Assembly (NCBI GenBank): GCA_018065025.1
Contig: JAGHUB010000017.1
Location: 1-19,189 of the forward strand
Direction of reading: 5' to 3'
DNA length: 19,189 bases
DNA from: Candidatus Equihabitans merdae
GTDB lineage: Bacteria > Bacillota > Clostridia > Lachnospirales > Lachnospiraceae
Shown here: piece after piece, positions 4,716 through 7,640 of the stretch
Position numbering within the stretch: position 1 is the first letter of the stretch
How the letters are laid out: the number at the start of each line of letters is the position of its first letter
Program-made: the position numbers and the translations under genes
Notes under the pieces: model-generated
Database searches by the model: none
Seen by the model: only the letters and a program-made list of their open reading frames with translations
What the model was told of the DNA's origin: nothing

Positions 4716-5546
4716 TCAAATTATCGGCAGTTCATCCTCCGGAGATTCATCAGACTGCTCCAAAGTCTGATTCATAAGTTGCTCAGCCATAGCAGCTGCC
4801 CCGGAAAAATCGATAGCAATTTCTCCATCATAGATTCCAAGTGAAATCGTTGAACTCAAAGGATGAATGGTCGCCTGATCTGTCTTCTCCAAATGATAGG
4901 TGATGACATACTTAGCATATGGATCCACGATCCAATACTCTCTGGTTCCCGCCACTTCATACTTGTAGCGCTTCAGATAATAATCCTTTGATTTTGAGCT
5001 AGGAGAAATCACCTCCATGACAAAATCAGGCGCCCCTTCTATATTCCGACCGGTTACCTTCTTTGGATCACATACGATAATAACATCCGGTTGAACCATT
5101 GTTTTATTATTCATCTCCAAACGAACATCGATAGGCGATATAAACGGGATACATCTTCCACCTTTTGATGCAATCTGATTCACAAGTTGAGCATAAGCAC
5201 TTCCTGCAATATACTGATGGAATGTCGTCGGTGCTTCCATATAATAATAGCGACCATCGATCAACTCAACTCGAAGATCATCAGGCAATGCCCGATAATC
5301 TTCCACAGTATAATCACCAGGCTGTTTAGTCAGATACGGTGCTGTGTTATCTCGCACCTGTATAGCCTTCTCTTCTCGTGAAGCAAACACCTTTTGAAGG
5401 GCTTGTAAGGTATCATATCGAGGATGTTTGGTTTCTCCTGAGAAAATCTTCTGAACCGTCCTTACCGGCACACCGGATAACTCAGCGATACGCTCATTAG
5501 TATAACACACCTCTCTTTTCAGCTTAATCATCTCATCCAGGAACAT
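4716..5546 (-). CDS. HTH (XRE-like) and Uma2-type PD-(D/E)XK nuclease-like fusion protein
   Basis: A 276-residue two-domain protein. Residues about 5-55 look like an XRE-type helix-turn-helix (TNERIAELSGVPVRTVQKIF then PRYDTLQALQKVF). Residues about 78-250 match the Uma2 (DUF820) family of restriction-endonuclease-like fold: ELIDGRYY (E95), QPDVIIVC (D154), FVMEVISPSS (E178), then KRYKYEVAGTREYWIVDP. The putative metal-binding D and E are intact, with lysines at 185, 187 and 192 nearby. Uma2 proteins are widespread, but their substrates are poorly known. The tail (about 255-276) is acidic. The ATG is preceded by GGAGGTG at 5551-5557. The gene has its own strong promoter flanked by a perfect inverted repeat, which suggests that the HTH regulates its own gene. 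It is inserted between comEC and holA, where Bacillus has no such gene. No antitoxin or methylase partner is adjacent. Confidence 0.85.
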   Translation of the reverse strand: MFLDEMIKLKREVCYTNERIAELSGVPVRTVQKIFSGETKHPRYDTLQALQKVFASREEKAIQVRDNTAPYLTKQPGDYTVEDYRALPDDLRVELIDGRYYYMEAPTTFHQYIAGSAYAQLVNQIASKGGRCIPFISPIDVRLEMNNKTMVQPDVIIVCDPKKVTGRNIEGAPDFVMEVISPSSKSKDYYLKRYKYEVAGTREYWIVDPYAKYVITYHLEKTDQATIHPLSSTISLGIYDGEIAIDFSGAAAMAEQLMNQTLEQSDESPEDELPII

Positions 5547-5616
5547 ACTACACCTCCGCTATGTCTCCGGCTATTAAGGCAAGATCCATCTGTACCTTAT
5601 ATCTTCCATCCACAAA

Positions 5617-5645
5617 AATATATACCCAAATCAAATTCTTGTCAA
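5617..5645 (-). promoter_or_regulatory. Promoter of the HTH-Uma2 gene
   Basis: On the minus strand, TTGACA (5640-5645) is followed by a 17-base spacer and TATATT (5617-5622). This is close to the sigma-A consensus. Transcription would start near 5610, about 64 bases before the ATG. One arm of the 17-bp inverted repeat covers the spacer end and the -10. Confidence 0.8.
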
Positions 5646-5664
5646 TCTGATTTGGGTATATATT
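5617..5664. repeat. Perfect 17-bp inverted repeat around the HTH-Uma2 promoter (probable operator)
   Basis: AATATATACCCAAATCA at 5617-5633 is the exact reverse complement of 5648-5664, with a 14-base spacer that contains the -35. One arm overlays the -10 and the other lies just upstream of the -35, the usual layout of a repressor-controlled promoter. Further TTTGGGTATATA-like copies follow outward at about 5663-5673 and 5673-5684, each about 11 bp apart. The minus-strand RNA of the repeat would form a long stem followed by TTTTT, so it may also end transcripts coming from the upstream cell-wall gene. Confidence 0.75.
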
Positions 5665-5705
5665 GGGTATTATTTGGTGTTATATCGTTTTATCGGGTTT
5701 TCTCA

Positions 5706-7640
5706 TCACCCTACAGTGGGTCTGAAGATGCGTACCCAGCCGCCATAGTCGTTGGTGAAGGCTACTTCTCTGCCGGTCTGGTCACCGGGAGTGGGGGCGG
5801 CGAATTCCATACCAAGTTCATTCATGGTGGCTTCAGCGATCCATCCTGAACCCAGGCTCATAGCCACGTGGCTATTGGAAATCAGAATATCGCCCGGCTG
5901 GAGTCCATACCAGGGTGTGCCGGTAATATCTCTAAATGAATTATTGGCATAGGTCAGAATCCAGGCAAATGACGCAAAGTTAACACCAACGCCATAATTA
6001 CATCTGATTTGATGGCGAACAGCTATATCACGCATGTTGCAGACCCCTGCCAGTTCATAGGCCATAGCTATATAAGTTGAGCAGGAATAGTCGCCGTACA
6101 TGCCCCACCTGGCGTATTTCAGATCATAGTTGTCCGGTGTCTGTTCACCGATACAGCCGTAACCATGTCGAGAATCCATGGCAATAGCTCTGACCCAGGC
6201 TTCTACGCGTTTAGTAGGGGATGCCCAGTTCTTCAGCACATGCTCTGTGAGATTATCATAGATATACCACTGGCCTCTGATACTCTCAGGCTGTGAATTT
6301 ACTGCCGCCAAAGCCCCTGAATAACTGGAATACTTGCCCAGACGATTATAGTTATTGTCATAATAGTAATTGCTGGTAACAGAATATCTTGCACTATCAG
6401 AACCCGGCCATACCTGACGGTGAGCATACTGACCTTGTGAAGGTGCCACCTTGGCAGCTGTTTCATCCGAGACCGCTGCCTGACCGCCAAGTAAGGTCAT
6501 GGCACGGACCTTCTGATGGGTCTCCAGATACCAGGCAGCCTGATGTTCATTGACAGGAGCTGCCAGAAGAATAGGAGCCCCACTGATGCAAGCCAAAGGT
6601 CCACCGGCCAGTGCATCCGGGAAATTATAGCCGTTGGCCAGCATAACCTGTGTGGTCTCTTCCGAAGAATAAAACTCCGCTGCAATAAATGCACTGGTAG
6701 AAAATCGATCCGGGCCGGCTACGCGCTTTACCTCTTTTCCGGTAACTTCCTTAACCTGATTCTTAAAGCTTGAAGTCATTACAGCCTTGCCGCCAATGAT
6801 ATAGATTTCCGAAAAATCATTTTCTTCAAGAAATGCTATCTGGTCTTCTGTCAGACTATTGCCGTCAGATAACATGATATTTCCCGGAACAGCTGAAGCC
6901 GATACAGCATCAGGATAATTCCAACCGTAACAGATCAGAAGTCTGTCGGCCTGGTCATCCTGGTTGCGGACAGCAGCCATTTCCTCCAGGACCAGATTAT
7001 TGGTCTCAAAACGATCATTACCGGCCAATCGCTTGACTTCATAATCCGCCAGTTGTTCTTCCCAGGCTGCAGACACAGCTTTTGTCCCGCCAAGGATATA
7101 AATGGTGCTTCCCTCAACCAATTTCTCTTTGATGAAACCAAGCTGAGAATTAAGAGCAGAATCATTAACCAGAAGAAGGGGATACCCCATAGCGACAGAC
7201 AAGCTGCCTGCACTTAAGGCATCCGGGTAATTATCGCCGGATACCAGAATCATGCCGTTGATTCCGGTAGTATTATTGAACTTCTCATATCTGGCTATAT
7301 ATTCCCCTGCCAGACGTCTGGATGTCTCGTAACGATCATACCCCCAGATGCGCTGAAGGGCAGATACATCAGGCATACCGGTAACATTTGCCTGGTTAAG
7401 TTCTTCCTGAACCTCTGCGCTGGCAAGATTAAGCTCAGCCTCCACAAGCTGATACGCCTGCTCCCACTCAGTATCTTCAACAGGTTCCGTCTCATCTGCT
7501 ATATATTCTTCTATCTCGGGAAATGGACCTTCATAAGTGTAAGTTCCATCCGCATAAGTGCATATACTCCCACCCTGTACAGCCAATGCAGCGCCCAGCA
7601 CAAGGGCTGTTGCCTTTCCAAAAAAATATCCTTTCCTCAT
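5706..7640 (-). CDS. Secreted protein with three CWB2 cell-wall-binding repeats and a C-terminal NlpC/P60- or CHAP-like cysteine peptidase domain
   Basis: A 644-residue protein with a signal peptide (MRKGYFFGKATALVLGAALA, cleavage likely near residue 30). A short acidic helical region (about 40-90) is followed by three CWB2 (cell wall binding repeat 2) units at about 97-198, 202-298 and 304-398. Each has a GxDRYET-type start, a NYPDA core and an IYIIGG-type end. Such triplets anchor clostridial proteins to the wall by binding an anionic polymer. Residues about 455-644 resemble an NlpC/P60 or CHAP-like cysteine peptidase/amidase: GDYSCSTYIAMAYELAG with probable nucleophile C520, then LQPGDILISNSHVAMSLG with H591. 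It probably cuts peptidoglycan. The ATG has TAGGAG upstream and its own TTGACA promoter. It lies between comEC and the HTH-Uma2 gene. The exact peptidase family and bond cleaved are not certain. Confidence 0.87.
   Translation of the reverse strand: MRKGYFFGKATALVLGAALAVQGGSICTYADGTYTYEGPFPEIEEYIADETEPVEDTEWEQAYQLVEAELNLASAEVQEELNQANVTGMPDVSALQRIWGYDRYETSRRLAGEYIARYEKFNNTTGINGMILVSGDNYPDALSAGSLSVAMGYPLLLVNDSALNSQLGFIKEKLVEGSTIYILGGTKAVSAAWEEQLADYEVKRLAGNDRFETNNLVLEEMAAVRNQDDQADRLLICYGWNYPDAVSASAVPGNIMLSDGNSLTEDQIAFLEENDFSEIYIIGGKAVMTSSFKNQVKEVTGKEVKRVAGPDRFSTSAFIAAEFYSSEETTQVMLANGYNFPDALAGGPLACISGAPILLAAPVNEHQAAWYLETHQKVRAMTLLGGQAAVSDETAAKVAPSQGQYAHRQVWPGSDSARYSVTSNYYYDNNYNRLGKYSSYSGALAAVNSQPESIRGQWYIYDNLTEHVLKNWASPTKRVEAWVRAIAMDSRHGYGCIGEQTPDNYDLKYARWGMYGDYSCSTYIAMAYELAGVCNMRDIAVRHQIRCNYGVGVNFASFAWILTYANNSFRDITGTPWYGLQPGDILISNSHVAMSLGSGWIAEATMNELGMEFAAPTPGDQTGREVAFTNDYGGWVRIFRPTVG

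Follow-up and report, generated by a model that had tools for sequence, protein, structure and literature searches.

In the window, by which we mean the whole 19,189-nucleotide stretch of Candidatus Equihabitans merdae DNA that was analysed, a minus-strand gene joins a helix-turn-helix (HTH) domain to a Uma2 domain. The best explanation of this gene, at a probability of about three in four, is that it encodes a partnerless, self-repressing HTH-Uma2 protein which would act through a phased operator. Judged from sequence, the conserved unit of this operator is a half-site repeated at exactly 11 bp, and not a long repeat. The gene and the parts of its product are as follows.

4716..5546, minus strand: HTH-Uma2 coding sequence, 276 aa, stop included (ORF listing and Pfam)
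5370..5546, minus strand: XRE/HTH_3 DNA-binding domain, aa 1-59 (Pfam and AF2 model; 17 aligned sequences conserve the HTH)
5343..5369, minus strand: linker, aa 60-68 (pLDDT below 50)
4872..5306, minus strand: Uma2 (DUF820) PD-(D/E)XK nuclease-like domain, Pfam aa 81-225 (Pfam, AF2 model and solved chains)
4971..5219, minus strand: putative active-site stretch with H110, (P)D154, E178 and a migrated K192 (alignment of 57 sequences)

Both Pfam and the AF2 model placed one HTH and one nuclease-type domain in a single chain. Pfam matched HTH_3 (PF01381) at aa 15-54 with 24.5 bits (cut-off 23) and Uma2 (PF05685) at aa 81-225 with 101.2 bits, above the gathering score of 27. The HTH fold in the model was helical, with helices at aa 3-13, 17-24, 28-36 and 44-62, the third of which is the recognition helix. 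The Uma2 part presented a PD-(D/E)XK fold like that of 1wdj and 3ot2, and the alignment with the solved chains 6okh, 1wdj, 3ot2 and 9y1l was restricted to this part. H110, P153-D154, E178 and K192 were invariant across the 57 aligned sequences and match the H-PD-EXX-K pattern given for the Uma2 family in a passage of PMC551604; on these alignment counts the putative catalytic residues are intact, as had been proposed for the acidic ones. The earlier note was also right about the two domains of the fusion, as seen with Pfam. HTH_3 was annotated beside Uma2 in 101 of the best 120 protein matches (counted from the listing); the architecture is common, not unusual. Identity to the window protein among these best 120 matches, the query itself excluded, was 44-57%, with none above 57%, so that conservation of the promoter was tested over a wide divergence. 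HTH_3-Uma2 proteins named 'Uma2 family endonuclease', many of them in Lachnospiraceae, have the same architecture as the window protein, which differs in that its sites combine an inverted pair with direct repeats. The window gene is the sole copy in its own genome, where there is one HTH of this kind. The span of 4716..5684 first attributed to the gene holds in part, since the coding part stops at 5546 and 5547-5684 is promoter, with the following features.

5640..5645, minus strand: -35 hexamer TTGACA (promoter scan)
5617..5622, minus strand: -10 hexamer TATATT, after a 17-bp spacer (promoter scan)
5621..5631, minus strand: half-site ATTTGGGTATA, the inverted partner, which overlaps both the spacer and the -10 edge
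5650..5660, plus strand: half-site 1 of the 11-bp array, ATTTGGGTATA
5661..5671, plus strand: half-site 2 of the 11-bp array, TATTGGGTATT
5672..5682, plus strand: half-site 3 of the 11-bp array, ATTTGGTGTTA
5617..5664, no strand assigned: inverted repeat around a 6-nt centre, with arms of 17 bp when perfect and of 21 bp when one mismatch is allowed
5553..5557, minus strand: ribosome-binding site GGAGG (by eye)

The promoter, TTGACA-17-TATATT, has 11 of 12 consensus matches. The description of it in the earlier note proved accurate on three points. The perfect 17-bp inverted repeat is present, both arms (TGATTTGGGTATATATT, 5648-5664 on the plus strand and 5617-5633 on the minus strand) being exact matches, and it scored 18, a value that 2000 mononucleotide shufflings of the 159-bp intergenic sequence never approached beyond 12; it lengthens to 21 nt at 95% identity (5617-5637 / 5644-5664). 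The repeat lies on the promoter, with the -10 inside one arm and the -35 between the arms. Further copies stand one helical turn apart, the first G of TTTGGG, ATTGGG and TTTGGT being at 5654, 5665 and 5676, a spacing of exactly 11 + 11 bp. A fourth half-site, on the minus strand with its first G at 5627, adjoins the -10. Compared with the forward arrays of the family, the direct array of the window is reversed in direction and its inverted partner reaches the -10.

Conservation of the inverted repeat in orthologues had been set beforehand as the test of the self-operator, and the long repeat was not kept; the half-site array was kept instead in most of the promoters tested. When the best palindrome was searched in the 220 bp upstream of the gene in 54 relatives and the window, 10 of the 54 relatives scored at least 10, with sequences unlike that of the window by eye (e.g. 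L012, L095, L108), and this search ruled out the literal 17-bp inverted repeat as the conserved element. For the analysis of the array, 91 HTH-Uma2 ORFs, among them that of the window itself, gave 85 non-redundant training promoters with at least 120 bp upstream, 82 of which had at least 200 bp, and 66 HTH-less Uma2 genes gave 62 promoters for comparison. In word counts made with no prior motif, the top 7-mer was AAACGGT, with a count of 27 versus 1.6 in shuffles and 0 in the HTH-less set; the ribosome-binding site surfaced beside it and served as a built-in positive control. Exact 6-mer self-matches, for which no motif was assumed either, peaked at a lag of 11 (109 versus 15.6 in other genes, scaled).

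With the half-site pattern (A/T)(A/T)(A/T)(C/T)GG, which was picked after inspecting the same training promoters, 53 same-orientation pairs at 11 bp were counted in the 85 promoters versus 0.8 in shuffles, and harmonics were present at 22 bp (21 versus 0.9) and 33 bp (12 versus 0.7). Only 2 such pairs occurred in the 62 HTH-less Uma2 promoters. The pairs were concentrated near the gene: 41 were located in the 16.7 kb between -1 and -200, 3 in the 8.0 kb between -200 and -300, and none in 51 kb of coding sequence or in 17.8 kb downstream. A motif of 11 positions was then trained, a promoter passing when its score exceeded the 99th percentile of shuffles. This was the case for 53/82 training promoters, for 244 of the 410 scorings in cross-validation (82 promoters x 5), and for 3/62 of the whole HTH-less Uma2 set. 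Applied at other spacings (7-16), the trained motif passed 0-8/82, and the background of the whole procedure, retrained on shuffled sets, was 4-8/82.

A held-out set was drawn from 397 sampled genomes of the family, 96 of which had an HTH match (E <= 0.001). Its loci are the upper part of the match list and not all matches (26 by search and 60 by region); 83 of these 86 promoters were used for motif scoring and all 86 for the register and covariation counts. The frozen motif passed in 65/83 held-out promoters, and on re-scoring at spacings 8-14, 64 passed at 11 and 2-15 at the others. The controls gave 0/109 for further genes in the training-set loci and 0/12 for HTH-less Uma2 genes of related records, or 0/11 without L124, which is a fragment of a frame-split HTH-Uma2 gene; another of the twelve, L156, falls within the HTH clade on the Uma2-domain tree. 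Clustering of the training proteins at 60% identity left the array in 33 of 46 clusters. The promoter of Lachnospira eligens ATCC 27750 passed with a score of 18.3 (threshold 14.4) with the annotated start, which fell to 8.4 if the start was set 12 bases upstream. These sequence statistics establish the array and its link with the HTH-bearing gene. At the 1% threshold, no array was detected in 29/82 training and 18/83 held-out promoters; some of these loci (L015-L017, L022) seem to lie directly behind another gene and may not have a promoter of their own. An especially clear array was observed in the L103 promoter, with five ATGGT half-sites in a row at 11-bp spacing.

The position of the array relative to the promoter was recurrent. 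In forward arrays, a half-site tended to stop right in front of the -35 box, its first G being at -2 in 28/58 held-out and 16/37 training arrays, and in phase with the -35 (-2 modulo 11) in 34/58 and 17/37, respectively. The footprint of the array overlapped the -35 to -10 stretch in 42/59 held-out and 28/43 training cases. By these counts the array usually keeps phase with the -35, a register that is non-independent evidence and partly built in, as the promoters were consensus matches and the motif had absorbed part of TTGAC. This placement would suit repression by occlusion, and an array beside the -35 could instead activate.

The same HTH was found almost exclusively on Uma2 proteins. In the training loci, 94 ORFs carried it, of which 91 were Uma2 proteins, one was cut by a contig end and two were class II aldolase fusions; in the held-out loci, Uma2 was present on 86/86 HTH ORFs. 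In the two exceptions (L149 and L150, from genomes G022 and G020), the partner of the HTH is not Uma2 but a class II aldolase/adducin domain, recognised as PF00596 in L150, and the 11-bp array was absent upstream of both (scores of 1.9 and -0.8). Residue 29 of the recognition helix (G/S) tracked the base before GG (C/T), with p 0.004 in training and 0.005-0.010 in held-out promoters. Fisher p for this residue, with relatedness ignored, was 0.0004 for the base before GG and 0.058 for the base after, and counting relatedness on the tree left just 4 usable independent pairs and makes the link a tentative one. An association at position 35 was observed in the training set only and did not replicate in the held-out set. 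The number of held-out positions with p < 0.01 was 6/41 in the HTH and 4/128 in Uma2 for the base before GG, and 4/41 and 6/128 for the base after.

In the window, the gene lies nearest to a CW_binding_2 gene, to comEC and to a gene that by eye is holA-like, and the neighbours are chromosomal genes by Pfam. As proposed earlier, a partner antitoxin or methylase was not seen among the window genes (three neighbours examined by Pfam, the others by eye). No small partner ORF of a two-gene toxin-antitoxin operon was recognised by eye beside the gene, and no adjacent methyltransferase was found among the window genes, the neighbours of the relatives having been checked for recurrence only. Counted over 57 loci, the only widely recurring family was the HTH-Uma2 protein itself, the next reaching 6/57. 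The protein of 5706-7640 has repeats of the cell-wall-binding type CW_binding_2 as well as an endolysin-like match that stays under its cut-off; comEC and holA flank its gene and the HTH-Uma2 gene. In the genus, 29 loci around holA were covered over at most 1.5 kb per side, several of them being truncated at a contig end. None gave an HTH-Uma2 match, and in 4 of the 29 comEC was directly upstream of holA; the HTH-Uma2 gene therefore looks like an accessory insertion. A tree of the Uma2 domain was built from 81 HTH-bearing rows and 20 HTH-less ones, on which the HTH label required 3 changes versus 18.5 when shuffled, with the bootstrap unsettled.

A mobile-element origin was considered and provisionally set aside: there was no downstream array, no recurring neighbour and a single phage match to Uma2 only, and a scan of IMG/VR with two peptide patterns confirmed 0 of 51 candidates. 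The one phage record matched the Uma2 part alone (aa 79-245). In this record, Dorea phage DO134P1 (L201, OP172779.1, 23745-29242), the match lies between an HTH_3/peptidase M78 pair and an NYN gene plus recombinase, a setting that hints at a role in phage-host conflict.

Two other explanations turn on where the array occurs. The array might be bound by another regulator of the cell and not by the fused HTH, whose binding is itself deduced from sequence; the aldolase fusions, with the same HTH and no array, would agree with this. Against it, the array tracks HTH-bearing Uma2, being found in none of the 11 true HTH-less Uma2 genes or 109 other genes, and in the genome of the window, which has one such HTH, the array pattern matched the window alone. 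A strict double site, scanned for in 99 genomes as a sign of a wider regulon, turned up 12 times, against 13 for the reversed control. Six of these 12 sites precede an HTH-Uma2 gene by no more than about 200 bp; at the other six, one of which is at a contig end, no HTH-Uma2 gene was seen by eye in the ORF listing. Another regulator is quite improbable. Still less probable is a nuclease that its HTH would steer to a defined site, genomic or on invading DNA, and that would cut there. The invariance of H110, D154, E178 and K192 is in its favour, but the only place in the genome with the array pattern is the gene's own promoter, where cutting would be self-destructive. The genomic version of this idea, put forward in the earlier note, found no support, as near-copies were also few: beyond the two arms, a single operator-like 17-mer at one mismatch and six at three mismatches were detected, against 3 matches in the reversed control. 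The one-mismatch copy (G000:C30:6966-6982, L004:1501-1517) precedes an HTH gene by about 190 bp, and the C-terminal part of that gene is nucleotidyltransferase-like by eye. Two of the three-mismatch copies, at G000:C181:3012-3111 (L007), are 83 bp apart within a repeated stretch and are probably due to chance.

The remaining explanations concern the long repeat and the Uma2 domain. That the repeat is mainly an intrinsic terminator of the 5706-7640 cell-wall-binding gene, only the half-sites being operator, is a serious possibility at somewhat less than even odds, and it is compatible with self-repression. On the minus strand it gives a 20-pair hairpin with TTTTG behind it, about 41 nt past the stop of the upstream gene, and was terminator-like in the scan; the RNA fold of a 101-nt stretch was -28.5 kcal/mol (z -6.2), and the repeat exceeds one half-site in length and is not conserved as such. 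However, G-C pairs make up just 4 of the 20 and the run of T is a short one; moreover, the arms hold the half-site of the family and the repeat holds the -35 and -10. A plain transcription factor, with a Uma2 domain for assembly or ligand sensing only, is unlikely: the gene is chromosomal with a regulator-like promoter, and nuclease-inactive PD-(D/E)XK folds are known according to a passage of PMC551604, but the four putative catalytic residues do not vary in the 57 sequences and the genome of the window yielded no second target for the array.

The explanation we prefer is that of a self-repressing HTH-Uma2 protein. The autorepressor idea of the earlier note was well supported, through the 11-bp half-site array and not through the 17-bp repeat that it had stressed. 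The 434-Cro/XRE-like HTH would bind WWW(C/T)GG half-sites every 11 bp, so that protomers would be aligned along a single helical face of the promoter DNA, presumably in a co-operative manner. An assembly bound to the three direct half-sites just upstream of the -35 and to the inverted fourth reaching the -10 would exclude RNA polymerase, which we infer to mean repression over activation. The flexible linker would carry the nuclease-like domain, which may be active as a nuclease and whose low dose would be set by its own operator and not by an antitoxin or methylase. As to biological role, our guess is a chromosomal stress or defence effector.

The closest precedent is the fusion of a C protein with a restriction enzyme. 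In CR.NsoJS138I, as described in passages of PMC3850674, a regulator of its own promoter and a restriction-enzyme domain are likewise joined in one polypeptide, and both functions were demonstrated. The type represented by CR.NsoJS138I has, in the same passages, a methyltransferase gene, symmetrical C boxes and a regulator that both activates and represses. Unlike such fusions, the window gene has no adjacent methyltransferase, carries a Uma2 domain and has 11-bp direct repeats; symmetrical C boxes were not found upstream, the family sites being direct repeats to which the window adds one inverted partner. HTH-effector fusions of the AcrIIA11/AcrIIA15 type (8jfu; PMC13131331) are, in the passages available, anti-CRISPR proteins, and AcrIIA15 was solved with palindromic DNA; HTH-Uma2 differs in its nuclease fold, chromosomal setting and phased direct array. 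Uma2 was called a likely solo toxin in a passage of PMC2701414, and the passages on Uma2/DUF820/COG4636 in PMC551604 and PMC2701414 do not describe a regulatory site. A literature search found no HTH-Uma2 operator or 11-bp array of the HTH-Uma2 family in print.

Uma2 is heavily multiplied in some genomes, making up more than 2% of Gloeobacter genes in a passage of PMC551604, and in passages of papers from 2005, including this one, its function was given as unknown or only predicted. The presence of the operator in most of the HTH-Uma2 promoters tested, within one bacterial family, would provide a large Uma2 branch with a defined DNA target, and would also enable a reporter assay and a mutational test of this branch. 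XRE-type domains usually bind palindromes as dimers. An 11-bp direct-repeat array in register with the -35 would be an unusual operator design for such a domain, and it suggests a way to carry a predicted nuclease without an antitoxin or methylase. A further, doubtful idea is that of a one-gene toxin with its own operator as the only antidote, the array being both dose limiter and sensor. If true, protein drawn off the array would raise the dose of nuclease, the triggers would be many extra copies of matching DNA, promoter loss or a damaged chromosome, and HTH-Uma2 would be a one-component counterpart of a toxin-antitoxin pair.
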